A DNA stretch of 32,573 nt from Erysipelotrichales bacterium (lineage in GTDB: Bacteria > Bacillota_I > Bacilli_A > RFN20 > CAG-826), in NCBI GenBank assembly GCA_022508525.1, contig JAFLVA010000016.1, positions 1 through 32,573 of the forward strand. The letters are read 5' to 3'. How positions within the stretch are numbered: the stretch's first letter is position 1; every line of letters begins with the position of its first letter. Positions 903 through 19,049 of the stretch are shown one piece after another. The notes under the pieces are model-generated. The model was given only the letters and a program-made list of their open reading frames with translations, was not told the origin of the DNA and did no database searches. The position numbers and the translations under genes were made by a program.

Positions 903-1709
903 CTATAATTCAATCCTAATAGCATGCCCTGGTTTTTGTTGTTCTATTGGAGGAAGTTTTTTCCAATCTCCATAGCGCATATTTAACCAAGTTTCATAAT
1001 CTTTTGGTACAAAAAATTTTTCACCCTCAAAGGTATGTTCTATAATGTTGGTATAAAACTGTCTAGAATGAGGCTTTTTTCCTTTTCCGTAATGACATAA
1101 TTTGCATACATTTTTTGTAGGAAAAATATTACAAAACCTTAAAGCAAATTCTGCATTGAAATTTACTAATTTTAAAGGCAAAATCTTTCCAAAGAAACTA
1201 TTGATTTTTTTATGGCTTGTTGAAAACTCTCTTCCTATTTTATTCCAACGAATTGTTTGCCAAAAGTATGCTAATTTATACTGAATTTTATAAGTAATTT
1301 TACTAGTGTTATCTAGTGGAAAAATGTCCAAAAACAATCCTTTATGTTCTTTTACTTTTGAACTACCTTTTTCTTCATAAATTGTATTATTCATTTTCAA
1401 TTTGCCAAAATTGTAAGAATAATATTTAGAAGTTTTTGTTGTTTCCAATGTGAACAAATCATGATTTAGATCTTTTTTACAAGCACGTATAAATTTTTTG
1501 TAATCTTTTCGTAGCATAACGACATCTACATCATCATCCCAAGGAATGAAACCGTTATGACGTATTGCTCCTAAAAGAGTACCACTATCTAATGAGTACT
1601 TGAGATTATTCTTTTTACAAATACGATCAAATTCCAACAGAATTACAAGTAGCTTTTCTTGGATTTGTTTTAAAGAATATTTTTCATTAGCCATTAAATT
1701 GGAATTCAT
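903..1709 (-). CDS. licD: LicD-family phosphotransferase
   Basis: A 268-residue protein with the LicD nucleotidyltransferase-fold core at about residues 43-63: GTLLGAIRHNGF, then the acidic PWDDDVDV motif that binds metal. LicD proteins transfer phosphocholine, or in fungal-type and capsule relatives other phospho-groups, from a CDP-activated donor to a surface glycan. Here it probably decorates the polysaccharide built by the neighbouring enzymes. The reading frame stays open to a TTG at 1787, but the ATG at 1709 is preceded by AAGAAGG at good spacing and is preferred. The stretch between 1710 and the end of the giant upstream gene (1805) carries no other gene. No choline-activation genes (licA, licC) are visible in this window, so the transferred group is unknown. 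Confidence 0.88.
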   Translation of the reverse strand: MNSNLMANEKYSLKQIQEKLLVILLEFDRICKKNNLKYSLDSGTLLGAIRHNGFIPWDDDVDVVMLRKDYKKFIRACKKDLNHDLFTLETTKTSKYYSYNFGKLKMNNTIYEEKGSSKVKEHKGLFLDIFPLDNTSKITYKIQYKLAYFWQTIRWNKIGREFSTSHKKINSFFGKILPLKLVNFNAEFALRFCNIFPTKNVCKLCHYGKGKKPHSRQFYTNIIEHTFEGEKFFVPKDYETWLNMRYGDWKKLPPIEQQKPGHAIRIEL

Positions 1710-1804
1710 AAACAACCTTCTTTCATCTTTTGTGTAATTTTTTAATAATGCAATAATCGTAGTTGAAGACATTTTTTGTATTTTCAACTTTTTAGCCGTT
1801 CGCT

Positions 1805-4800
1805 TTATTCTACACTTTTTATTCTTTCATTCAATTCACTTTTTCTTAATATTTTTTCTATTTTACTTAACGTTGAAGTAATAATTAATTTTTCTTCTGT
1901 TTTCATAGTAAATTTCCAAAGCAAAATACTATATATGATTACGATTAATATGACTTTTAAACCGAAATATGTCAATCCATTATTCGGAATTAAATAATCA
2001 ATTGCTATTCCACAAAGTAACGTAATGAGTAGGAAAGGCATAATTTTTAAGTGACAAGATATAAAGAATTTTTTCAAATCCATTCTAAGTGCTTTCTTAT
2101 AGAAGACATTAAGAATAATTGCCATTCCAACAAATTTTCCTATACACACTGCTAGTGCTGCTCCTATTGCTTCATAATCTTTAAACAAATAACTAAATAA
2201 GAATGAAAGCGAAATAGTTATTAATGCTGTGATAACAATAGCAATGCCACGATATTTTATTTTGTTTTTTACAATCAAAGTCGAATTACCAATTTGCTGC
2301 GTAAATGTTACAAAGCAAGGAAGTAATAATAATACTGCAACAAAATAGGAATGGTCATAAGAGACACCATCTTCATTTAATTTCCAAATATCATTAATAA
2401 ATCCGCGACCAACGGCAATAAATCCAATAATAATTAAGCCCATAAACATTAATTGTAGTCTACCAACTTTAATCATTAATTGAGTGTATTCTTCAGGAGA
2501 GGCATTTTTATTATTCATTTTTGAAAGACGAGGGATAAACATTCCATCTAACCCTTGAGAGAATTGCCAAGCATAACCTTCTATTGTGGATCCTACGGTA
2601 AAGATAGCAATTTGTGCAGATCCCGCAAAAATTCCTAAAATTGTTGGATTTATAGAAATTATATATCGAGAAGCAAATGAAGCAATGGCAGCCCAGAAAG
2701 AGAATTTAGCAAGACTTTGGAACATATCTTTGCTTTTATACGTCAAATCCGGTTTATTACCATATGCACATCGTTTCCTTATGTAAATCCACTTTATAAC
2801 TATTTCTAGTAATCCAACGAAAACAATAATTATAACAAAAAGATATAAATTGCTATAAAGTAATAATGCTGCGACGACAAGAACAATATTTACAACTCTG
2901 CTTATGAGAGTAATTAGTTTATATTGTGGAAATTTGTCATTACCCATTAAGATACCATTTAAAGGAGTAAATACGAAATTAACTGTACAATATAGAGCTA
3001 CAATAATAAAGACGATACGTAATGATGAAATTTCTTCTGGGGTTAGTTTCACATAAATTTGTGGTAGGAAGAAATAAACACCTAATAGAACAGCAAATAT
3101 AACAGAATCAATTATTATGAAACATTTAAAAATAAGACCAAGCATTTTATTTGCACTGCCAGGATCTTTTTCTGCACGATATTTTGCAATGAATCGTGAA
3201 ACTGCAGTACCAAGTCCTAAATCAATTGCAACTAAAGATGTTATTGATGCGGCTAATGAATAAATTGCATAATTTGATTGTCCCAATTCTTTTACTAGCC
3301 ATGGAGTATAAAATAAACCTGCAACAATATTTAAAAATATCGCTAAATACGAAGTAATTGCACCTGTTTTAAGACTGCTATTTTTATCTTTTATTGTTAC
3401 ATTCTTTTCTTGTGTTTTTGATTCATGGACATTGTTACGGCAAATTTGCGCTGAACCATATTGGCCATGTACTTGATCCTTATAGTAATCAACATCATGT
3501 TCTTCTGCGACACTTAGTGCACCTTTTTCTTGAACAATAACATGTCCATCTATCAAACTCTTAATGAATACATCTAATTTTTGTACAAGGTTATCGGTGT
3601 TATAATCTTCTTTAATAGTTTTAAAAGCAGCTTCTCCTAACGATCTTCTTAAATTATCATTTTGGCAAAGGAAGAATACTTTTTCAAATAAATCCTGATC
3701 ATCATCGTAATCGTAAATAAAGCCGTTATGTCCATTTTCTATTAAAACTGGAGCAGCACCTGTTGTATGGCTTGCTACAACAGCGCACCCACTTATCATA
3801 CCTTCATTTACGCAAGATCCCCATCCCTCATTTTGATCTGAGGTGCTAATTAGAATATGTGATTTTTCAATATGTTCACGTACTTTATCATTAGACATTG
3901 AACCTAGTAAAGTTATGGAGTCATTTAAATTGGCGTTGGAAATCATTTCTTTAATTTGTGGTTCCATATCTCCGACACCAATCATATTTATGTGAAAATT
4001 AACATTCTTTTTCTTTAAATATGATCCCAAACGAACTATTTTTTCTGGATGTTTCCAATCAATAAATCTATTTACATAAATTATTTGTATTGTTGAATCA
4101 GAGTTGTTAGCATTTTTCTTTTCTTCTAAAGAATCGAAAGTTTCGTAGGTGTTATCTTGAATCCAGTAGCCCCACTTTAGACATTTACCAACTGCGTGAT
4201 TAATTTGTTCATAATCAAAAGCGGTATAAGCAGAATATGTTAAACAGAAAGTTTGATATCTAGATTCATATGGCACTACATGTTTCAATTGACTTAAAAT
4301 AGATCGAATTGACCATCGTTGATATTTTGATTTTTTATAAAGTCTTTCAGAACATTGGATTAAAATTTTGTTTTTCTGCCTTGCTAGTTTTAAAATACTA
4401 TTAGGAACATTGCCGTATAAAATCACATCTGCATTTTTTATTAGTTCATCAGCCATCATTTGCTCTTCATTAGATGCAAAACGTCTTACTTCGTTATTTA
4501 ATGGTTTATCAAATTCTGGATTATAAGTTTGATGTTCGTTCATAGTCTGTTCTAAAGATATAAAATGATAACGATCACCATATTGCTTAACTAATGAATT
4601 ATGAGTTGCTACTTGATGAATTGATAAAAAATTTGAAATCATAACGATTTGGAAATTTTCTGGATCAATATTTTTATATCCGGCATATTTTATTCTTCTC
4701 AAAGTAAAGTTTTTGCAACTTCTTTCAATAATACCATAGGATAAGAAAATAAGTGAAAAGAAATAAATATTTGCTTGAATAATAGGTTCAAAGAAACAAA

Positions 4801-5962
4801 GACCTAAACAACCAATAACAAAATAAGTTATGTATGCTTTGAAGAATGAATCTTTAGAGTAAATTATATTATCCAACACCTTTTTAATGAGATGTAATGT
4901 TATAGCAATAAAGAATATAGCCGGAATCATTCCTCCGATTTTATAAATATCTAACCAAGTATTGTGGAAATAATTAGAAATAGGATTTCCGTTAGCATCC
5001 AAAATAGGATGCTTTGCAGTCATTCCACCAAACGGATATTGCAAATAGTATTTAAAGAATAAATTATATAATTCAGCACGATCGGAATAAGATTCATCGT
5101 TAGGGTCAAGAAGTCTACTAACAAATGGAATAGAATTCACTTTTGCTCTAATTTGAGGAACAAAACTGTATGCCGCAAAAAAGAGTAAGAACATGCCGAT
5201 TACAGATCCTAAAATAATAAACGAAATTTTCTTATATTTTTTAAAATCTATCATAAGCAACAATATAGGAATAATCGCAACACATATACCTATTAGTACT
5301 ATGAAAATACGATTTTGTAGAATCAATGATAAATAAGTTGAGAATAATAGCCCTAAAACTGCGACAACGATATGGTACCATTTCTTATAATTGCTTTTGA
5401 TTAATATGATTGGGAACGATGTTGTGCTTATCAAAATGACAAATTCATTTACCCCGGTTGCGGCAGTATATGATTTTCCAAAATTCCAAATATCTAAAAA
5501 GTATCTTCCTGTTTGAAAGAATCCGTGTTCTGTTACAGTTAGACACAAACCTAAAAAAGCTCTAACAATAAATCCAAGAGTAATTGCAAATAAGAAATTA
5601 AAAATATATTTTTGGTAATTTATATTTTCTTTTTGAGTTGCTAACGATGATCCAACTAAATAACAACCTATAGGAAAAAAAACAAAGTAAAATATATTTG
5701 TAATTGAAAAGCCATAATTAAGTGTATTAAACAAGAAGAATGTAATAGCAAAGCCGGTTACAAGAATCAATCCTTTATGCAACCTAATACGATTACAAAA
5801 GAATTGGCGAATTAGAACTAGTAAAATAAGGAAGATTAATAATACATTGCTTAATCCTAAAAAATCTAATCCAAATAAAAATGCTGGTAGATAAAAAACA
5901 GTTATAACTATATTTCTTATTGTGAGGAAATTTTTAAATTTCTTTTTTAATGTTGCTGCCAT
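1805..5962 (-). CDS. Three-part fusion: Wzy/O-antigen-ligase-like polymerase + GT4 glycosyltransferase + Wzx-like flippase
   Basis: One uninterrupted frame encodes about 1385 residues; numbers here count from the upstream ATG at 5977. Residues 20-415 are a polytopic membrane domain with the Wzy/WaaL pattern, including a loop with DRAELYNLFFKYYLQYPFGG and HNTWLDIYKIGG near 300-350. Residues 440-805 form a soluble GT4 glycosyltransferase: IIYVNRFIDWKHPEKI (632-647), then the EX7E motif E717...E725 (EGWGSCVNE). After a polar linker (about 815-868), residues 870-1385 are a polytopic MOP-superfamily flippase with TGAITSYLAIFLNIVAGLFY at its start. Each module is of usual stand-alone length, so this looks like a true fusion. 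ATG 5962 has a GGTGGTGA ribosome binding site and is preferred over ATG 5977. Known roles: glycan flipping (Wzx), sugar addition (GT4), polymerisation (Wzy), all at the cytoplasmic membrane. The joint operation on one chain is inferred. Confidence 0.88.
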   Translation of the reverse strand: MAATLKKKFKNFLTIRNIVITVFYLPAFLFGLDFLGLSNVLLIFLILLVLIRQFFCNRIRLHKGLILVTGFAITFFLFNTLNYGFSITNIFYFVFFPIGCYLVGSSLATQKENINYQKYIFNFLFAITLGFIVRAFLGLCLTVTEHGFFQTGRYFLDIWNFGKSYTAATGVNEFVILISTTSFPIILIKSNYKKWYHIVVAVLGLLFSTYLSLILQNRIFIVLIGICVAIIPILLLMIDFKKYKKISFIILGSVIGMFLLFFAAYSFVPQIRAKVNSIPFVSRLLDPNDESYSDRAELYNLFFKYYLQYPFGGMTAKHPILDANGNPISNYFHNTWLDIYKIGGMIPAIFFIAITLHLIKKVLDNIIYSKDSFFKAYITYFVIGCLGLCFFEPIIQANIYFFSLIFLSYGIIERSCKNFTLRRIKYAGYKNIDPENFQIVMISNFLSIHQVATHNSLVKQYGDRYHFISLEQTMNEHQTYNPEFDKPLNNEVRRFASNEEQMMADELIKNADVILYGNVPNSILKLARQKNKILIQCSERLYKKSKYQRWSIRSILSQLKHVVPYESRYQTFCLTYSAYTAFDYEQINHAVGKCLKWGYWIQDNTYETFDSLEEKKNANNSDSTIQIIYVNRFIDWKHPEKIVRLGSYLKKKNVNFHINMIGVGDMEPQIKEMISNANLNDSITLLGSMSNDKVREHIEKSHILISTSDQNEGWGSCVNEGMISGCAVVASHTTGAAPVLIENGHNGFIYDYDDDQDLFEKVFFLCQNDNLRRSLGEAAFKTIKEDYNTDNLVQKLDVFIKSLIDGHVIVQEKGALSVAEEHDVDYYKDQVHGQYGSAQICRNNVHESKTQEKNVTIKDKNSSLKTGAITSYLAIFLNIVAGLFYTPWLVKELGQSNYAIYSLAASITSLVAIDLGLGTAVSRFIAKYRAEKDPGSANKMLGLIFKCFIIIDSVIFAVLLGVYFFLPQIYVKLTPEEISSLRIVFIIVALYCTVNFVFTPLNGILMGNDKFPQYKLITLISRVVNIVLVVAALLLYSNLYLFVIIIVFVGLLEIVIKWIYIRKRCAYGNKPDLTYKSKDMFQSLAKFSFWAAIASFASRYIISINPTILGIFAGSAQIAIFTVGSTIEGYAWQFSQGLDGMFIPRLSKMNNKNASPEEYTQLMIKVGRLQLMFMGLIIIGFIAVGRGFINDIWKLNEDGVSYDHSYFVAVLLLLPCFVTFTQQIGNSTLIVKNKIKYRGIAIVITALITISLSFLFSYLFKDYEAIGAALAVCIGKFVGMAIILNVFYKKALRMDLKKFFISCHLKIMPFLLITLLCGIAIDYLIPNNGLTYFGLKVILIVIIYSILLWKFTMKTEEKLIITSTLSKIEKILRKSELNERIKSVE

Positions 5963-5979
5963 GTTATTCACCACCATTA

Positions 5980-6405
5980 TTATCTTGTAAACTCACGGTA
6001 AACTTGAAATTCTTTGTTAAAATGATAGTCAATTAAAACATCGTCAACCAAGTAAAATTGGATTACTCGCTTAATATCATTTTCGTAGTATGTTAAGTTC
6101 ACAGCCTCTTTACGAATTAAATTATCCGTTTCATCAACTATATGACTTCCATTTTCATCTTTTTGTCTTTGAGAAGTATGTTGCCAATTTGTATTTAATG
6201 TTGTAATGGAGGATACTTTTCCATTTTCGTAATAATAAGTTGTAAGAGTAGCTCTATTAAAAACATTAAAATGTATTTTTTGTTGAACTACGCCATCAAT
6301 TTTAAAGTAATAATCACCAAGCATTCCTACGGAACATGATGAAAGTGTAGTACATGAAAACAACAAATAAACAAATATGAGTGCTTTTTTTATATTCTTT
6401 TTCAT
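5980..6405 (-). CDS. Small lipoprotein of unknown function in the polysaccharide locus
   Basis: A 141-residue protein with a short charged N-terminus (MKKNIKK), a hydrophobic segment and a lipobox ending in LSSC, so the mature protein should be lipid-anchored on the outer face of the membrane. The rest is polar and beta-rich in appearance, with YYFKIDGVV, TYYYENGKVSSIT and NLTYYENDIKRVIQF repeating a Tyr-Tyr-Glu-Asn element. I do not recognise a family. A perfect AGGAGG ribosome binding site overlaps the stop codon of the upstream glycosyltransferase gene, and the gene is placed directly before the fusion protein, so it is part of the same operon. It could assist chain length control, export or attachment of the glycan, but nothing in the sequence proves that. 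Confidence 0.75.
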   Translation of the reverse strand: MKKNIKKALIFVYLLFSCTTLSSCSVGMLGDYYFKIDGVVQQKIHFNVFNRATLTTYYYENGKVSSITTLNTNWQHTSQRQKDENGSHIVDETDNLIRKEAVNLTYYENDIKRVIQFYLVDDVLIDYHFNKEFQVYREFTR

Positions 6406-6415
6406 ACTTTACCTC

Positions 6416-8518
6416 CTAGTCACTATAAAATGTATAGCCTTTCTTTTTCATATGATTTTTTAGTTTGCGAACTAATTTCTTAGGGAGTAATTTTTTTAGA
6501 TACTCTCTAAACATTAGTTTTGTAGTAGTAACCCATTTAATTCTCTTTCGGCTTCCGAAATACATATGATGTTTTTTTAGATAAGAATTTGATTTTATTA
6601 ACAATTGCCCTTTTCTAATGCCGTCTAAAATAGGGAATACTTTTTCTTTGGTCATAACACATGTGTAATTTGTATTAGCAATTTTCTTTGATAGAGAAAC
6701 TTCAAATTGCCATGCATTTTGTTGCTCGGTAATCATTTCTCTTAGAACGCTTGTTTTCCAAATACCAGGATATAAATTGATATCGTATTGCTCAATTGGA
6801 TCTAAAAAGTACATTTTAGGATATTTTGTTTTCTTTTTGCCTCGCGTACCAGGATTATGGAAGAAACGCACGTATGCATAGTTCTCTTTTTTCATGATAT
6901 CGAGTATTTCATAAAGTCTTTGGGTTTTTATTTTTTTTGTTAGAAGATAATCATCTAATGTTAATAATACATATTCAGTATCTATACGATCTAAAGCATA
7001 TGAAAGTCGTTCACTATATTCTTTGCCTTCACCTGCAAATAAAACATGGACATGTTCAAAAGACATGTCATTTTTACGATCGCTAACTAAATAAGTTTCC
7101 ATATTACGATCTTTAAAATTCTTTTCCATTAATGTAACATGTGCATCCCATATATCTGAGAAAGCATTGCATGATTGAATTAATAGAGAAATTTCAGAAG
7201 ATTTATTGACTTCGTTAAATTCTTTATATGCATCACAAACAATTCTTTCAAACTGAGCGTTGCTATTAGATAATGTATGATTTTGTTTTGTTATAATTTT
7301 AGCATTCTCAAGACATTCTTTTTGTAATTCCTCATTTTCAATAAATTCTTTGATTTTTGGAAATAAGTCTTCTTTTTTTGTGATTGTACATACAGCATTT
7401 GTTGATTCTAAATAAGAAATCAAACCACATTCTATTGACCCGTATGCTATTGTAGGGATTCCAGAAGCTAGGCAATCTGCCGCTTTGGTTGATAAAGAAT
7501 ATTTTGTGGTTAAAATATCTTTCTTCTTCATTCCCTCAACTACAATTAAATAATTGCTATTTGCAGTTTCTACTGCGACTTGTGAATAAGGAATATTACC
7601 TTTAAGATTAATTCCTGGATGATTCTTTAATATTTTTAAAAATTTATTGTCTCTTTCAGAGGTATAGATATTGATTTTGTAATCACCATTTATCTTTTGA
7701 AGTGTATCAGCAATAACTTTTAATGATTCGTTTCTACCATTTCGTATGTTTCCAAAATAAGAAAATACAGGTGGATTATTACTTGCTGGTTGATCTATAA
7801 GTTTCAATTCAGATGAAAGATATATTGTTTCACCATGACGGTGGTAATAGTCATTGTACTTATCTCTAATTTTGTCACCGATATATATAATATTTCCAGG
7901 ATGTGCCATTACCTTAGAAATTAGTTTTTTATATTTTCTTCGATAAATGTAATAGAAAGGAGATAAACTAAAATGATTGTTGAAAATATAGTCATCACCA
8001 GTTGAGGAAACAATTGGGATGTTAAATTTTTTGGCCATGAACATCGCTATTTCTGGAATGAAGAAGTCATCAGAAAAACTTAGGAAAATCACCTGAGGAT
8101 TGAATTTTGTCACCCAGTCATGTAATTCTTTTGTATACCAATATTTTTCATTCCATAGCCATTTACGCATCAAGAAAATAAAAGGTGTTTTCTTACTACC
8201 CCTTTTATATAGTCGGCTATAAAATGAACTTTTCGTTTCTAATAAATTATCTTTCCATTCTGTTTCCAATTCTTCATCTAAATAAACTTTTCCAGTTTTG
8301 ACTTTTTTTGAAAAATGTCTTTTCAACATTCTTTGATCAGTAATTTGGAAAAAATATTTACAATGACCTTTAGTAGGAGCTTTATTTATAGAAAAGATTT
8401 GTGCAAGCTTTTCTTTTGGCCAGTTATGAAAATAAGCATCAAACGCTCTTGAAGTAGAATTTTTATTATAAGGTACAGTTCCGATGATCAATACACGAGG
8501 TAAATTTTGAGAATCCAT
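6416..8518 (-). CDS. Two-module glycosyltransferase (GT4-like + LDD-motif GT-A-like)
   Basis: A 700-residue soluble protein that splits into two parts. Residues 5-435 look like a GT-B glycosyltransferase: N-terminal PRVLIIGTVPYN, FSYFGNIRNGRNESL at about 252-266, and a GT4-type acceptor/donor segment STKAADCLASGIPTIAYGS at 343-361. Residues 441-700 begin a second module, SLLIQSCNAFSDIWDAHVTL, followed by SERLSYALDRIDTEYVLL and LDDYLL (521-526). This pattern of SERL...IDTEYVLL.LDD is one I associate with putative GT-A enzymes found in polysaccharide loci. The C-terminus is strongly basic, which could favour membrane binding. It is the first gene of the leftward operon, with an AAAGGTGG ribosome binding site. 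The domain boundary is approximate and the substrates are unknown. Confidence 0.8.
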   Translation of the reverse strand: MDSQNLPRVLIIGTVPYNKNSTSRAFDAYFHNWPKEKLAQIFSINKAPTKGHCKYFFQITDQRMLKRHFSKKVKTGKVYLDEELETEWKDNLLETKSSFYSRLYKRGSKKTPFIFLMRKWLWNEKYWYTKELHDWVTKFNPQVIFLSFSDDFFIPEIAMFMAKKFNIPIVSSTGDDYIFNNHFSLSPFYYIYRRKYKKLISKVMAHPGNIIYIGDKIRDKYNDYYHRHGETIYLSSELKLIDQPASNNPPVFSYFGNIRNGRNESLKVIADTLQKINGDYKINIYTSERDNKFLKILKNHPGINLKGNIPYSQVAVETANSNYLIVVEGMKKKDILTTKYSLSTKAADCLASGIPTIAYGSIECGLISYLESTNAVCTITKKEDLFPKIKEFIENEELQKECLENAKIITKQNHTLSNSNAQFERIVCDAYKEFNEVNKSSEISLLIQSCNAFSDIWDAHVTLMEKNFKDRNMETYLVSDRKNDMSFEHVHVLFAGEGKEYSERLSYALDRIDTEYVLLTLDDYLLTKKIKTQRLYEILDIMKKENYAYVRFFHNPGTRGKKKTKYPKMYFLDPIEQYDINLYPGIWKTSVLREMITEQQNAWQFEVSLSKKIANTNYTCVMTKEKVFPILDGIRKGQLLIKSNSYLKKHHMYFGSRKRIKWVTTTKLMFREYLKKLLPKKLVRKLKNHMKKKGYTFYSD

Positions 8519-13388: not shown

Positions 13389-13465
13389 TAACCTAACTTA
13401 CAAGTATGATGATAATATTTTAAAGCAATATGTTTTATTTATTATCCAAAATGGAGGGGAAATTT

Positions 13466-16069
13466 ATGAAAAAAAAGAATAGTATTTTTGTATTAATGAT
13501 TGGTATGGTACTTGCTATATGTGGCTCTTGCGCTAATAAAACTTCAGATAATAAATCAGTAAGTACAAGTACATCCATTTCAGAACCAACAAGTACTCCT
13601 ACACCATCAACTGGAGAAACAAGTAAATCTACATCGACTGATGTAAGTACAAGTACATCAGCATCTACTAGTGGATCTACAAGTAGTAGTGGAACATCTA
13701 ACAATGTAGACACTACAAAATATTTTGATGTTATTGTCAATAATGGCACAGGAAGTCAAACTCATGTTGCAGAAGGCACATTTGTTACAGTGGTTGCTAA
13801 TGAACCTGCTACTGGTAAGACCTTTAGTGGTTGGAGAGATGTGGAAGAAGATAGAATCGTTTCTAATTCATCCACTTATACATTTGAGGTTGTTAAGGAT
13901 ATTGAATTAACAGCAGAATATACTGATTTAGTTTTACATATTATTGTGCATAATGGTACCGGTACTGGAGACTATTTATATGGTACAGTAATTACAATCA
14001 CTGCTAATGAGCCTGAAAAAGGTAAATCGTTTAAATTATTTATGGATGAACACGGTAATGTTTTATCACGTAACCAAGAATTTGAACTTACAGTTACAGA
14101 AGATATGGTAATAACAGCGACATACGAAACTATTAATTATACTGTTATAGTAATTGGTGGAACTGGTGGAAAAGATTATTTCTTATATGGTGAAGAATGT
14201 ACTGTCACTGCAAATAATATTCCAGGCAAAATATTTGTTGGTTGGGAGAATGAACAAGGTACAATTGTTAGTAAAAATAATCCATACACATTCAATGTTA
14301 CAAGTGATATTACTTTAACGGCTAAATTTGAAGATGCTATAGTAACAGAAAAACCAGAAACTTATGCTGATGTAGTTAGTGTAATATCTCAAGCTGCATT
14401 AGTAGAAAACAATTTAGAGTCATTAAGTTTTAAAGAACAACTTGTTGACCAAGTGTTAGATGAAGCTAAAGCAAAAAATATTAATATGGTTTTTTATAAA
14501 GATGGTGTTGTAGCCGAAGGTACTGGACCAACATATTTAGGCCAATATGCATCGGCTTATCCTTTAGTACATGCTTATCAAATTAAAAATGGTAGATTGT
14601 ATGAAACACTTGATTTTGATTATGCTTATGCTAGTAGTTATGAAATTGCTACTGCAAAAACTATGGTCGACAATGTAACTAATAGTGATTTAGAAGTGTT
14701 AAGTAGTGATGCTACTCAAATTATTGAGAATTATGGAATTATAAATAAACTTGCAAAACTATTAGCAGATTTTGATGAAGATTCAACTTTAAATGTTGAA
14801 GATATGGATGGTAGTAACTATAAGATTATACTTTCAAAAGTTTTAACAAAGGAAACTTCGGCATTATATGGAACATTTGATTTAGAAATTGTTGTAAGAT
14901 CTAGTGATAACTTTATTACTTCATATAACTATTCTCATAAAAGATATGTTCGTTCAAGCCAAGTAGAAGATTCTACTGATGTTAATTCACCGTTAAAACC
15001 AAATGCAACTCCACGCGATAATATCTATACTATTGTTGAAGCTAGCAAATCTCCAACAGAATTAGAAAATATGCCTAGCGATGTAGTAAATGAAAAGATT
15101 GATAGTTACTTTATCTCTGATTTTACATTTACAGGAAGCTATTATCAAAATAATACAAGTCGTTCATTTACATCTGAAAATCCATTAGTAGCTGCTGGTT
15201 TTAGCATTACAAGTTGGACAATGACAAATGTAACACCAAGCACTGCAATTGAAAGTAAAACTTTATATTTCTTATCAAGTAGCAATGAAGATGTAATTAC
15301 TATTAATTCGAATGGTAAAGGAATTACTACAATTCAAGAAGGAACCTCGGATATTGTTGTTGCAACTTCAACTGGTGTTAGTAAAACAGTTACATTTACA
15401 GTTGGACAATTACCACCTACTTCAATTACAATTAATACTACATCTGATAAAATTGGAATAGATGAAAGTGTAGAATTAACAGCAACAGTTAACCCAAGTG
15501 GTTCAATTGAAACAGTTACTTGGTCAGTAAATGACTCAGAATTAGCTGAAATAATCACAGAAAATGGTAAAACTATGTTAAGAGGAAAATCCAGCGGATT
15601 TGTGACAGTTACAGCTACATCAACTGCTAATGTAAACGTTATGGCTTCAAAGACAATCTTTGTTTCGGCAGGTGATTTATCAACTGATGAACTTAAAGAA
15701 ACGATTGTAGGCACCTGGCAATATATTTTCTATTCAAATCAAGGATTCACTTTCACATTTAATGATAATGGAACTGTAACTATTGTCGATACTTATCGTG
15801 GGGCATCTGCAAAAATCAGTTGTAATGCTACATGGGAATTAACAACTAAAACTGATGACGAAATGCTACATAATGGTAGTGTTACTGCTATGAATGATGA
15901 ATATTATGTCATTGAAATCACCAACATTGAATTGACAGATTCACCAGCCTACTATATACATGATTTCCATTTAGTAATTGCTAAAGATGGTTCAAGTTTA
16001 ACATATCACTTTATACCTGGATCAGATGCAGCTAGCACTCAATCTGGCAATTTGACAAAAATTAATTAA
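13466..16069 (+). CDS. Large surface lipoprotein with InlB-type repeats, Ig-like domain and lipocalin-like C-terminus
   Basis: An 867-residue exported protein. MKKKNSIFVLMIGMVLAI is a signal sequence followed by CGSC, a somewhat atypical lipobox. Residues about 25-80 are a Ser/Thr-rich low-complexity linker. Residues about 85-291 hold three divergent InlB B-type repeats, each with an NGTG or GGTGG element, a Phe-Xaa-Gly-Trp-like core and an ITLTAKFE-like end. Residues about 650-736 are a BIG2-type Ig-like domain (PPTSITINTTSDKIGIDESV). The last 125 residues begin ETIVGTWQYIFYS and look like a lipocalin-type barrel. The ATG at 13466 has GGAGGGG 5 nt upstream; longer in-frame starts are less likely. 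It is the first of three lipoprotein genes and may bind glycans or host/environmental ligands, which is inference. Confidence 0.85.
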   Translation: MKKKNSIFVLMIGMVLAICGSCANKTSDNKSVSTSTSISEPTSTPTPSTGETSKSTSTDVSTSTSASTSGSTSSSGTSNNVDTTKYFDVIVNNGTGSQTHVAEGTFVTVVANEPATGKTFSGWRDVEEDRIVSNSSTYTFEVVKDIELTAEYTDLVLHIIVHNGTGTGDYLYGTVITITANEPEKGKSFKLFMDEHGNVLSRNQEFELTVTEDMVITATYETINYTVIVIGGTGGKDYFLYGEECTVTANNIPGKIFVGWENEQGTIVSKNNPYTFNVTSDITLTAKFEDAIVTEKPETYADVVSVISQAALVENNLESLSFKEQLVDQVLDEAKAKNINMVFYKDGVVAEGTGPTYLGQYASAYPLVHAYQIKNGRLYETLDFDYAYASSYEIATAKTMVDNVTNSDLEVLSSDATQIIENYGIINKLAKLLADFDEDSTLNVEDMDGSNYKIILSKVLTKETSALYGTFDLEIVVRSSDNFITSYNYSHKRYVRSSQVEDSTDVNSPLKPNATPRDNIYTIVEASKSPTELENMPSDVVNEKIDSYFISDFTFTGSYYQNNTSRSFTSENPLVAAGFSITSWTMTNVTPSTAIESKTLYFLSSSNEDVITINSNGKGITTIQEGTSDIVVATSTGVSKTVTFTVGQLPPTSITINTTSDKIGIDESVELTATVNPSGSIETVTWSVNDSELAEIITENGKTMLRGKSSGFVTVTATSTANVNVMASKTIFVSAGDLSTDELKETIVGTWQYIFYSNQGFTFTFNDNGTVTIVDTYRGASAKISCNATWELTTKTDDEMLHNGSVTAMNDEYYVIEITNIELTDSPAYYIHDFHLVIAKDGSSLTYHFIPGSDAASTQSGNLTKIN

Positions 16070-16078
16070 ATTAATATA

Positions 16079-16112
16079 TCAATGCGAATTTGCTTATAGC
16101 GATTCGCATTGA
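16079..16112 (+). promoter_or_regulatory. Intergenic hairpin between the first two lipoprotein genes
   Basis: TCAATGCGAAT (16079-16089) and ATTCGCATTGA (16102-16112) are perfect reverse complements with a 12-base loop. It is not followed by a T-run, so it is probably not an efficient terminator. It could be an mRNA processing or stability element that lowers expression of the downstream genes. Confidence 0.5.
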
Positions 16113-16135
16113 ATCCATTTTAGGAGATAAATTTT

Positions 16136-17869
16136 ATGAAAAAAATAATAATACTAATGATGCTTGCAACTGTTCTTGTATCATGTGGACAAATAAGTAA
16201 TGATAGTGGAAGTTTAGATGATTTACTATCGGCATCAACAAGCAATGAACTAGATTCTTCTTTAAAAGATAGTGCATCTACCTTGCCATCAACATCAGCA
16301 AGTAATACACCGAATTATCCTAATGTTATTGATTCCGAATTACTTTTAAGATTGATTTATAATGCACCTTTTGCTGACTTAAATATTGTAAAATCTAGTG
16401 AAACAAATTTTGATATTTATGGTTATGAAAATGGTATTCGATATCATCAAACACAAACAATTATTGAAAACACATATTCAAATGATATAACCATTGGTAG
16501 TGGAACTGTAAATCATTATTACATTAATGATACTTATGTTTACGAATCAGATTTTACAACTTTAAGAATGCTTCAAAATGATATTTATTATGATATTACA
16601 ATCTATGATAGTGAAGTTTTTACTAGCACTACAGATGCCATGAATTTAAATTGGTATGGCGATGATTTAGAAAGTTTGAGAGAAGAAGCAAGAATTTATG
16701 TATCAAGTGGTGTTGGCTATGAAGCATACACTGATTTTGTACAAGGCTATAATTTGGGATCTACAATTGCATATACATCTGAATATGTAAATAATGACTT
16801 ATCAGTAACTATATATATGGAATATGAGAGTGGCAACACTAATCAATACTATATTGCAACTTTCTCATATTTATTTGATGTAAATGATTTGCATATTAAG
16901 AGTTATGTTGCGGAACAATCTTATTATAGTTATTTGGCATATCAATCAAACAATAATTCTATAGAAGGTCTAACCCCAATTGATTATGTACTTCAAGAAA
17001 CTACAGTAAACACTGGTAAATTAAGTGAATTTACTGGTGAATTACCTTTTGATATTGATTCACTATTTGTCCAAGAAATTAATTTATCTGCAGCTGTAAC
17101 TCAAATTAAAGTTGGAGAAACAGTTGCACTTAAGGCGGAAGTATTACCAAAAACTGCTATTGATCGAAGTTTAAAGTATTCTAGTAGCAACGAGGCTGTT
17201 GCTGTTGTTGATTATAGTGGAAGAGTAAGAGGATTAACTCCAGGAACTTGTACTATTATTGCTGAAAACATTTATAGTGGTGTAACAGGAAAAATAGATA
17301 TTACTGTTCTTCCTGAAGATAAACCTGATGTCGGTGATGATAGTGAAAAAAGAGATTTAAAAGAAGCACTTTCTGTTGTATCTAAACAAGTATTCTCCAC
17401 TCCAACTAATTTAATAGATGATGGTGAGATGAAGTGGTCATCAGTTGGCATGATTATTGATAACGAACAATCAATTGACTCAGAGGCTCTTGCAATGTTG
17501 ACTGTCTCTGACTTTGCATATAATGCTGTTTTAAGGAAAGCAACATATGTTGGTGATATGGAAAAATTAGAGTCAATTATTCCATTTTTAGATAATGGTA
17601 TTGAAAATTTGTCTAATCGTTATTTAATAAAAACTTATATAATTTATCGCGAAGTGATTGTAAGCTTTGAATTAGTGCTTAGTGCAACTAATACAATTGA
17701 TTATGTAAAGCTTACTACAAGAACTGATTATATTGAATCTGAAACAAAGATTGATACTACAAATCTGAATAATGATAATGTTGAATCTGTCGGAACACTT
17801 CATATCAATTCATATGGAACAAGAAATGTCTTTTATGAATCAAGGGGATTTGTTTATGAAGAAGAATAA
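16136..17869 (+). CDS. Surface lipoprotein with BIG2 Ig-like domain
   Basis: A 577-residue lipoprotein. MKKIIILMMLATVLVSC is a signal peptide with lipobox LVSC, followed by a Ser/Thr-rich linker (about 20-55). The middle part (about 60-300) is rich in Tyr, Asn and Asp and alternates short beta-strands, including YIATFSYLFDVNDLHIKSYV, a pattern seen in half-barrel lipoproteins of the LppX/LolA type. Residues about 312-395 are a BIG2-like Ig domain (INLSAAVTQIKVGETVALKA, then SSSNEAVAVVDYSGRVRGL). The last 170 residues form another unassigned domain. An AGGAG site precedes the ATG. Its 3' end overlaps the next lipoprotein by 14 nt, so the two are coupled. Function unknown; surface exposure is well supported. 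Confidence 0.82.
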   Translation: MKKIIILMMLATVLVSCGQISNDSGSLDDLLSASTSNELDSSLKDSASTLPSTSASNTPNYPNVIDSELLLRLIYNAPFADLNIVKSSETNFDIYGYENGIRYHQTQTIIENTYSNDITIGSGTVNHYYINDTYVYESDFTTLRMLQNDIYYDITIYDSEVFTSTTDAMNLNWYGDDLESLREEARIYVSSGVGYEAYTDFVQGYNLGSTIAYTSEYVNNDLSVTIYMEYESGNTNQYYIATFSYLFDVNDLHIKSYVAEQSYYSYLAYQSNNNSIEGLTPIDYVLQETTVNTGKLSEFTGELPFDIDSLFVQEINLSAAVTQIKVGETVALKAEVLPKTAIDRSLKYSSSNEAVAVVDYSGRVRGLTPGTCTIIAENIYSGVTGKIDITVLPEDKPDVGDDSEKRDLKEALSVVSKQVFSTPTNLIDDGEMKWSSVGMIIDNEQSIDSEALAMLTVSDFAYNAVLRKATYVGDMEKLESIIPFLDNGIENLSNRYLIKTYIIYREVIVSFELVLSATNTIDYVKLTTRTDYIESETKIDTTNLNNDNVESVGTLHINSYGTRNVFYESRGFVYEEE

Positions 17870-19049
17870 AAAAAATGTATTCGCATTACTTCTAGCATTA
17901 TCATTACTTGCTGGTTGTGCAACAAATACAACTCCAAGTAATAGCCCAGATATATCTACACCATCTGTCAATGCTTCAAATAATCTTCCATCTTCAGATT
18001 CATCAGACACTTCAAAGTCTTCTACAGACGTGGAATCCACTACATTTACGCTTGAAGAAGCAAATGAGGCTTTGTTTAACGCGGTATTCGTCGATGAAGA
18101 TTTTACGGAAGTAAGAGTCTCACAATATAATAACTATAATACTTATCGTCAACAACGCTCAACAAAAATATCTAGTTATTTAGATGTAACCTTATATGTA
18201 GGTACAACTGTTAATCGCGATTCTAATAGTATTATAACTGCGACTTCAAATTTTCGTGAAGAAAGAACTTATAATGATGGTATCTATACACAAATTAAAA
18301 AATTTGATACAACATTTGCTGCAACAGCTTATCGATATGAAACAGATGAATTGGAAGCATTAATTAATTTAAATGCTGGTCAAGGTTATAATGCTTGGTT
18401 GATTTTAAATACCTTTACAAGTAACTATGATGGTAGATATTTTGGAGAAATACTAAGTGATGGCAGCCGACATGCAACTTTTATTTATACTGGAGAAATT
18501 GATGACGATTTATATCAATATATAGCAGGATTTGAATTTACAATTGATGCTCAATATCATGTCACAGATTTCTGGTACACTGAAGGATATTATGATACAT
18601 TTTATGATAATTATGATACCCCTACTTCGATGCGAAAACATGGTGTGTATGGGGTCGGTTATTCTTATTTTATGGAGTCATATAAACTAGGTGAATTGAC
18701 TAGTTATCCGTTTGCACTTCAATATAGCATAGAAGATAATTTCATCACTGAAGCTAGCTTTTCTAAAGAATCATTAACATATTCAATTTCCGAAACACCA
18801 GAAGATGAGTATGGATATAAGTCTGTTAATTTACTAGAATTATTAATTACGAATCCGCAAATTGGTGATTTAGTTAGAGGATGCCCAATTAATAATTTAT
18901 CCTTTAGTTCATCTAATTCTGATGTCATTGTTATTAATGATGGATGGTATGCAGACTTTATAGGAGAAGGAGAAGCTACTATTACAGTTTATGATAAAGC
19001 ATATGGTGTAACTGGTAGTAACACATTAACAATAACTTTATTACCATAA
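17856..19049 (+). CDS. Surface lipoprotein, paralogue of the preceding gene
   Basis: A 397-residue lipoprotein: MKKNKKNVFALLLALSLLAGC has a canonical lipobox LAGC, then a Ser/Thr-rich linker (about 22-60). The middle domain resembles that of the previous gene in length and layout: YIAGFEFTIDAQYHVTDFWY aligns in pattern with its YIATFSYLFDVNDLHIKSYV. The last 100 residues are Ig-like (LSFSSSNSDVIVIN and GEGEATITVYDKAYGVTG). ATG 17856 has AAGGGGA upstream and lies inside the 3' end of the previous gene. No terminator is visible after the stop; instead an IS-end-like repeat and transposase debris follow. It is probably a shortened duplicate of its neighbour that lacks the extra C-terminal domain. 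Confidence 0.82.
   Translation: MKKNKKNVFALLLALSLLAGCATNTTPSNSPDISTPSVNASNNLPSSDSSDTSKSSTDVESTTFTLEEANEALFNAVFVDEDFTEVRVSQYNNYNTYRQQRSTKISSYLDVTLYVGTTVNRDSNSIITATSNFREERTYNDGIYTQIKKFDTTFAATAYRYETDELEALINLNAGQGYNAWLILNTFTSNYDGRYFGEILSDGSRHATFIYTGEIDDDLYQYIAGFEFTIDAQYHVTDFWYTEGYYDTFYDNYDTPTSMRKHGVYGVGYSYFMESYKLGELTSYPFALQYSIEDNFITEASFSKESLTYSISETPEDEYGYKSVNLLELLITNPQIGDLVRGCPINNLSFSSSNSDVIVINDGWYADFIGEGEATITVYDKAYGVTGSNTLTITLLP

Follow-up and report, generated by a model that had tools for sequence, protein, structure and literature searches.

A Wzy-GT4-Wzx fusion protein of the family CAG-826 as a probable single-chain machine for late steps of surface polysaccharide synthesis

A contig of 32,573 nucleotides from an Erysipelotrichales bacterium (GenBank assembly GCA_022508525.1, contig JAFLVA010000016.1; hereafter "the window") encodes a protein in which the parts of a Wzx/Wzy-dependent polysaccharide pathway are joined end to end. 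From N- to C-terminus, it comprises a Wzy_C-type polymerase domain with about 12 transmembrane (TM) helices, a glycosyltransferase (GT) domain of family GT4 in which the EX7E motif is intact, about 60 residues of polar linker and a MOP flippase domain (Wzx) with 14 TM helices. The host, a bacterium of gut type, belongs to the family CAG-826. We consider it likely that the protein is a single-chain capsule or surface-polysaccharide machine that arose within this family and holds late steps of the pathway tethered in a 1:1:1 ratio. As a preliminary description of the window had stated, the gene is one continuous frame of 4.2 kb. It lies on the minus strand, runs uninterrupted from 5977 to 1805 and encodes 1390 residues counted from the first ATG, or 1385 residues from a second ATG at 5962, which is an alternative start. 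No in-frame internal start codon with a Shine-Dalgarno sequence was found at either the Wzy-GT or the GT-Wzx joint, and a single polypeptide is therefore expected.

The assignment of three domains, likewise proposed in the preliminary description, was borne out by profile matches. In the whole protein, Glycos_transf_1 (PF00534) matched residues 618–786 with 92 bits (range 92–97 bits) and Polysacc_synt (PF01943) matched residues 872–1132 with 58 bits (range 57.6–63.6 bits; cut-off 28.2). The GT4 catalytic residues R637, K642, E717 and E725, the last two forming the EX7E motif, are invariant across 15 homologues, and the domain matched TarM (1.2e-22) and also WlaC/PglA in the PDB. A profile of the flippase domain retrieved MurJ structures from the PDB (5.3e-7). 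The C-terminal domain probably shares the fold family of the MurJ-type MOP flippases, whereas its substrate would presumably be a repeat unit rather than lipid II.

For the N-terminal domain, Wzy_C (PF04932) scored 41.2 bits over window positions 4907–5347 in a whole-genome profile search, above the cut-off of 31.7; in the two further fusions described below, the same search gave 35.6 bits (G021) and 32.3 bits (G003, with neighbours). hmmscan, run with its filters, missed Wzy_C both in the whole window protein and in an isolated fragment of the N-terminal 440 residues, and scored the G021 domain at 31.0 bits; a PDB sequence search with the Wzy domain returned no match. On profile evidence alone, Wzy is assigned less securely than the other two domains. 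Further support comes from stand-alone homologues that match Wzy_C and from an R/R/H motif. Residues R223, R300 and H338 correspond by motif spacing to R215/R288/H338 of WaaL, and the R300-x14-P315 spacing equals that of R298–P313 in PglL, with R300 lying one column off in a single sequence of the eight aligned. The large loop (residues 275–344) is extracytoplasmic by hydropathy, as in WaaL-PglL.

Hydropathy averaged over an alignment of the three fusions, combined with positive-inside counts, gave about 12 TM helices, followed by a soluble domain and 14 further TM helices; the 12th helix, at about residues 403–421, was assigned by eye. The N-terminus, the GT, the linker and the C-terminus are all predicted to be cytoplasmic, in agreement with the earlier proposal of a cytoplasmic GT between two membrane domains. 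A polar linker had been described as spanning about 50 residues; it is indeed present between GT and Wzx, but covers about 60 residues and differs in length in G021, while the Wzy-GT joint comprises only about 20.

The window belongs to a metagenome-assembled genome (MAG; G000) that is fragmented into 52 contigs, so that a consensus error deleting the stops between separate genes, or a binning artefact, had to be considered. The preliminary description had itself envisaged that homologues in sister genomes might always be split. However, a search for homologues covering all three parts found two further full-length fusions among 193 relatives, with homology far above chance: G003 (Erysipelotrichales bacterium HAN092; E = 0), from the same genus as the window, and G021 (Bacilli bacterium UW_MP_BACIL2_1; E = 1.5e-203), from a different genus. 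G021, sequenced with PacBio, is a MAG in 2 contigs (PMC9302107) that GTDB places in order RFN20, family CAG-826 and genus UBA7706, and its fusion sits in an assembly with a 1.48-Mb contig. These two MAGs are of other origin than the window's, their fusions (75% and 32–33% identical to the window protein, respectively) show the same domain order and the linker stays in frame. We therefore reject an artefact, which appears extremely improbable. Between the window and G003, each of the three domains shows a nonsynonymous divergence (dN) of 0.11–0.22 and a synonymous divergence (dS) of about 1.5–1.7, the latter near saturation, so that the ratio gives no more than an indication of purifying selection. 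Beyond these three, no Wzy-GT-Wzx fusion was detected in 224 family genomes, 279 order genomes and 395 sampled Bacilli (overlapping sets).

Relatives with separate genes show how such a protein may have formed. In two genomes of genus g17, G080 (locus L033) and G065 (L034), the Wzy and GT homologues are separate neighbours, 18 nt and 3 nt apart, respectively, and a separate Wzx is present in the same cluster. In G047 and G265, the homologous GT gene lies immediately upstream of Wzx. G002, of the same genus as the window, encodes a 1156-residue protein (a Wzy_C match plus a Glyco_trans_1_2 match just under the cut-off), then a GT, then Wzx, with the gene ends touching. The domains of the fusion are thus joined in the order that neighbouring genes show. 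Two-domain matches with "one stop inside" in G080, G065, G047 and G265 were rejected as fusions, being adjacent separate genes.

Fusions of pathway parts recur in CAG-826 in other domain orders, a pattern that the preliminary description, sound on domains, continuity and topology, had overlooked. Wzy-Wzx proteins of 842–923 residues occur at four loci (L117, L118, L120 and L122); Wzy_C is above the cut-off in all four and Polysacc_synt in L118 and L122, while the flippase part of L117 and L120 is supported by our flippase profile. A Wzy-Wzx-PS_pyruv_trans protein of 1213 residues (G217, L113:3074-6715) has all three domains above the cut-off and represents a second kind of triple fusion. In the reverse order, Wzx-Wzy proteins occur in G046 and G066 (949 residues; Polysacc_synt above the cut-off, Wzy_C below it at 23–24 bits) and in G038 (995 residues; flippase by profile, genome-search score for Wzy_C 50 bits). 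Wzy-GT4 proteins were found at L079, L123 and L124, and also in the window's own genome (contig 2, L106:3379-5820; 813 residues, genome-search score for Wzy_C just 24 bits), with Wzy_C frames of similar length (814–823 residues) in three congeners, G001, G002 and G003. A Wzx-GT protein (L070) and a Wzy-hexapeptide protein (L041) complete the set, together with acyltransferase-3 (PF01757)-Wzx proteins of about 870 residues in genus g22 (L037 and L038; L069 by length and tree position). L037 and L038 had initially been guessed from TM counts to be Wzy-Wzx fusions, which was wrong.

In a maximum-likelihood tree built from 61 flippase domains, linkage to Wzy requires at least five changes, with several domain orders; this count is approximate, given a quick search, several long branches that meet and a support of only 72 for the grouping of the three triple fusions. 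With the same E cut for both groups, 7 of the 18 Wzy_C frames listed in CAG-826 span at least 650 residues, compared with 4 of about 154 in the other sampled Bacilli; this contrast is rough, as frames were listed down to an E-value limit and counted by hand. The triple fusion is thus an extreme case of a wider CAG-826 pattern of Wzx/Wzy/GT fusions. Relatives carry the triple fusion as well as several further fusions of its parts, which makes it probable that flippase and polymerase act next to each other.

In the known Wzx/Wzy capsule and O-antigen pathways, Wzx, Wzy and the GTs are separate proteins, while here they form one polypeptide. The same three activities are predicted from the Pfam families and intact motifs, and the clusters of G003 and G021 also contain the initiating transferase PF02397. 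Wzy is well documented to associate physically with Wzz rather than with Wzx, as in the WzyE-WzzE complex (PMC10030265); a structure of WzxE has also been published (PMC11706664). The nearest precedent for the triple fusion is WadA, a bimodular O-antigen ligase (GT121 plus GT25) for which coupled action has been proposed (PMC10920833). WadA likewise joins a GT-C membrane ligase to a globular glycosyltransferase, but its GT is GT25 rather than GT4, its membrane part is a ligase rather than a Wzy, and it is without a flippase domain. Closer to hand, the stand-alone CAG-826 genes described above (Wzy and GT in G080 and G065, GT and Wzx in G265 and G047) encode homologous domains in adjacent genes; those of G080 and G065 share the same small upstream protein with the fusions, although they yield separate proteins. 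The other, independent fusions (L117, L118, L120, L122, L113, L051 and L116) share with the window protein a flippase and a polymerase in one chain, but differ in domain order, in flippase subfamily (according to the tree) and in having no intervening GT4 domain. We found no published Wzx-Wzy or Wzy-GT-Wzx fusion in the open-access literature, subscription papers and protein databases being outside this search.

Based on these results, we suggest the following scheme. The middle GT4 domain, presumably active given its intact motif, would extend the undecaprenyl-PP-linked repeat unit by a sugar at the cytoplasmic face, possibly the last one of the unit, as the preliminary description had proposed. 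The C-terminal MOP domain would flip the lipid-linked repeat unit, and the N-terminal Wzy_C (GT-C) domain would polymerise the flipped units at the outer face. With the three late steps tethered in one membrane protein, the nascent unit would probably be passed on locally. The 1:1:1 stoichiometry would be fixed by the covalent link, provided that the chain is uncleaved. The fusion itself probably derived within CAG-826 from adjacent, translationally coupled wzy, GT and wzx genes.

Several observations weigh against this scheme. The Wzy domain is divergent and was overlooked by hmmscan in the window protein, and the Wzy_C superfamily includes ligases too. AlphaFold models of two overlapping segments (845 and 963 residues), computed from three-row alignments, reached predicted local distance difference test (pLDDT) scores of only 45 and 48, the latter for the flippase-domain fold, which is too low for fold searches with the membrane parts. 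Elsewhere in the window genome, further PF01943 loci encode Wzx separately, which makes the fusion one route among others. Finally, a post-translational cut in the 60-residue linker could yield separate Wzy-GT and Wzx proteins, as might be expected of a segment that is polar, poorly conserved (62% identical to its G003 counterpart) and variable in length when G021 is compared. However, no processing site was recognised in the linker (no systematic search was made), the linker is cytoplasmic by predicted topology and Wzy-Wzx fusions exist elsewhere without such a GT and linker; we consider cleavage very unlikely.

The chief rivals to a single-chain machine are a neutral fusion and a ligase in place of the polymerase. 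In a neutral fusion, coupled neighbours would have lost their stops in small, AT-rich genomes prone to fusion, and the domains would act as if separate, making the tether mechanistically meaningless. Genes of the split loci overlap or almost touch, Wzy_C frames are longer in CAG-826 and the family has further fusions in which Wzx carries an acyltransferase, Wzy a hexapeptide protein and Wzy-Wzx a pyruvyltransferase, as such a drift would produce. Yet the fusion has been maintained between genera at 32–33% identity, the recurrence of Wzx-Wzy linkage on the flippase tree, in several domain orders, points the same way, if weakly, and almost all of the proteins joined serve late steps of a single pathway, which makes neutrality somewhat doubtful. 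The N-terminal domain could instead be an O-antigen-ligase-like transferase that moves a finished glycan to another acceptor, given that Wzy_C spans polymerases and ligases, that the R/R/H set matches WaaL/PglL and that WadA sets a precedent for a ligase fused with a GT. In addition, no LytR-CpsA-Psr protein (LCP, PF03816) was found in seven genomes searched (G000, G001, G002, G003, G021, G065 and G080), despite their capsule-type clusters, so that another attachment enzyme would be required if the polymer is wall-linked. On the other hand, the stand-alone homologues sit in clusters with their own GT and Wzx, with no second Wzy-like gene in the stretches read (L033 and L034), and a ligase-flippase fusion would deprive its cluster of a polymerase. 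Moreover, to our knowledge lipopolysaccharide is not expected in Bacilli. We therefore regard a ligase as unlikely and favour polymerase chemistry for the N-terminal domain.

A tethered polymerase, GT and flippase would bear on whether Wzx, Wzy and the last glycosyltransferase act as one complex, and fusions that occur naturally in several domain orders provide "Rosetta-stone" evidence for flippase and polymerase belonging together. Such fusions supply single-chain proteins for cryo-electron microscopy, reconstitution and tether-cutting experiments, and may be useful for glyco-engineering, where Wzx and Wzy must match the repeat unit.

A small lipoprotein-like gene lies immediately upstream of this type of Wzy in five of five loci, whether fused (window, G003 and G021) or split (G080 and G065). 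Its counterparts are L111:282-710, L112:598-1041, L033:4033-4563, L034:6305-6844 and perhaps L041:4784-5266. Homology between fused and split loci is weak (E = 7e-5 and 0.12 in one direction, 1e-3 in the reverse), while the position is constant; elsewhere in the family genomes, a model built from the same five members gave one weak match only. The lipoprotein is possibly a new extracytoplasmic partner of Wzy. No Wzz/Wzd chain-length co-polymerase was recognised by eye among the reading frames flanking the fusions, where no profile search was made. More tentatively, we propose that in CAG-826 flippase and polymerase form an obligate 1:1 side-by-side unit that has been fused repeatedly, that the GT completes the repeat unit and passes it directly to the flippase and polymerase of its own chain, and that the lipoprotein replaces a Wzz-type co-polymerase.

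In the window, the contig end truncates the locus. In the other two fusion genomes, PF02397 lies on the fusion contig, about 19 kb (G003) or 8 kb (G021) away. The G003 cluster also contains a Polysacc_synt_2 (PglF-type) dehydratase, and that of G021 a CTP_transf_like gene and, by sequence inspection, a LicD-like gene. Judging from such neighbouring genes, the fusion clusters may make a phosphate-decorated surface polysaccharide. The N-terminal part of the glycosyltransferase-like protein upstream of the window fusion has a 448-residue homologue at the same position in G003 (L111:756-2102). The window genome has another, conventional split cluster (L108), with a separate Wzx, a weak Wzz-like gene (20 bits) and its own PF02397.

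Table 1. Features of the fusion locus (window coordinates) and related fusion loci
Feature	Position	Strand	Basis
Whole fusion open reading frame, Wzy - GT4 - linker - Wzx	1805..5977	-	Uninterrupted frame; full-length homologues G003 (75%), G021 (32–33%)
Wzy-type polymerase domain, residues 1–425, about 12 TM; R223, R300, H338-N339, E397-P398	4703..5977	-	PF04932, alignment with stand-alone homologues, topology
GT4 glycosyltransferase domain, residues 440–812; R637, K642, E717-X7-E725	3542..4660	-	PF00534, invariant catalytic residues, PDB matches
Polar GT-Wzx linker, residues 812–871	3365..3544	-	62% identical to G003, no frameshift, no internal start with Shine-Dalgarno
MOP-type flippase (Wzx) domain, residues 872–1385, 14 TM	1823..3364	-	PF01943, MurJ match in PDB, topology
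Small secreted lipoprotein, 141 residues, lipobox LSSC, 2 nt upstream of fusion	5980..6405	-	Counterparts in all five Wzy-GT loci
700-residue glycosyltransferase-like protein upstream of fusion	6416..8518	-	Glyco_trans_1_2
LicD-family protein directly downstream of fusion	903..1787	-	PF04991, 137 bits
GT2 glycosyltransferase, last gene ahead of contig end	53..925	-	PF00535, 75 bits
Wzx-Wzy fusion loci	L051, L116		Other flippase subfamilies, no GT4 between domains

Two further observations concern other parts of the window genome. At locus L107 (G000:C7:1-20000), the first 12 kb have a G+C fraction of 0.34–0.39, compared with 0.25–0.28 in the following 8 kb, and encode proteins that look Bacteroidota-like by eye, pointing to horizontal transfer, a chimeric contig or a misbinned contig. 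In the window itself, positions 13430-19049 (plus strand) encode three successive large Ser/Thr-rich lipoprotein-like proteins of 879, 577 and 425 residues, the first two with apparent Big-like repeats, as judged by eye from the translations.

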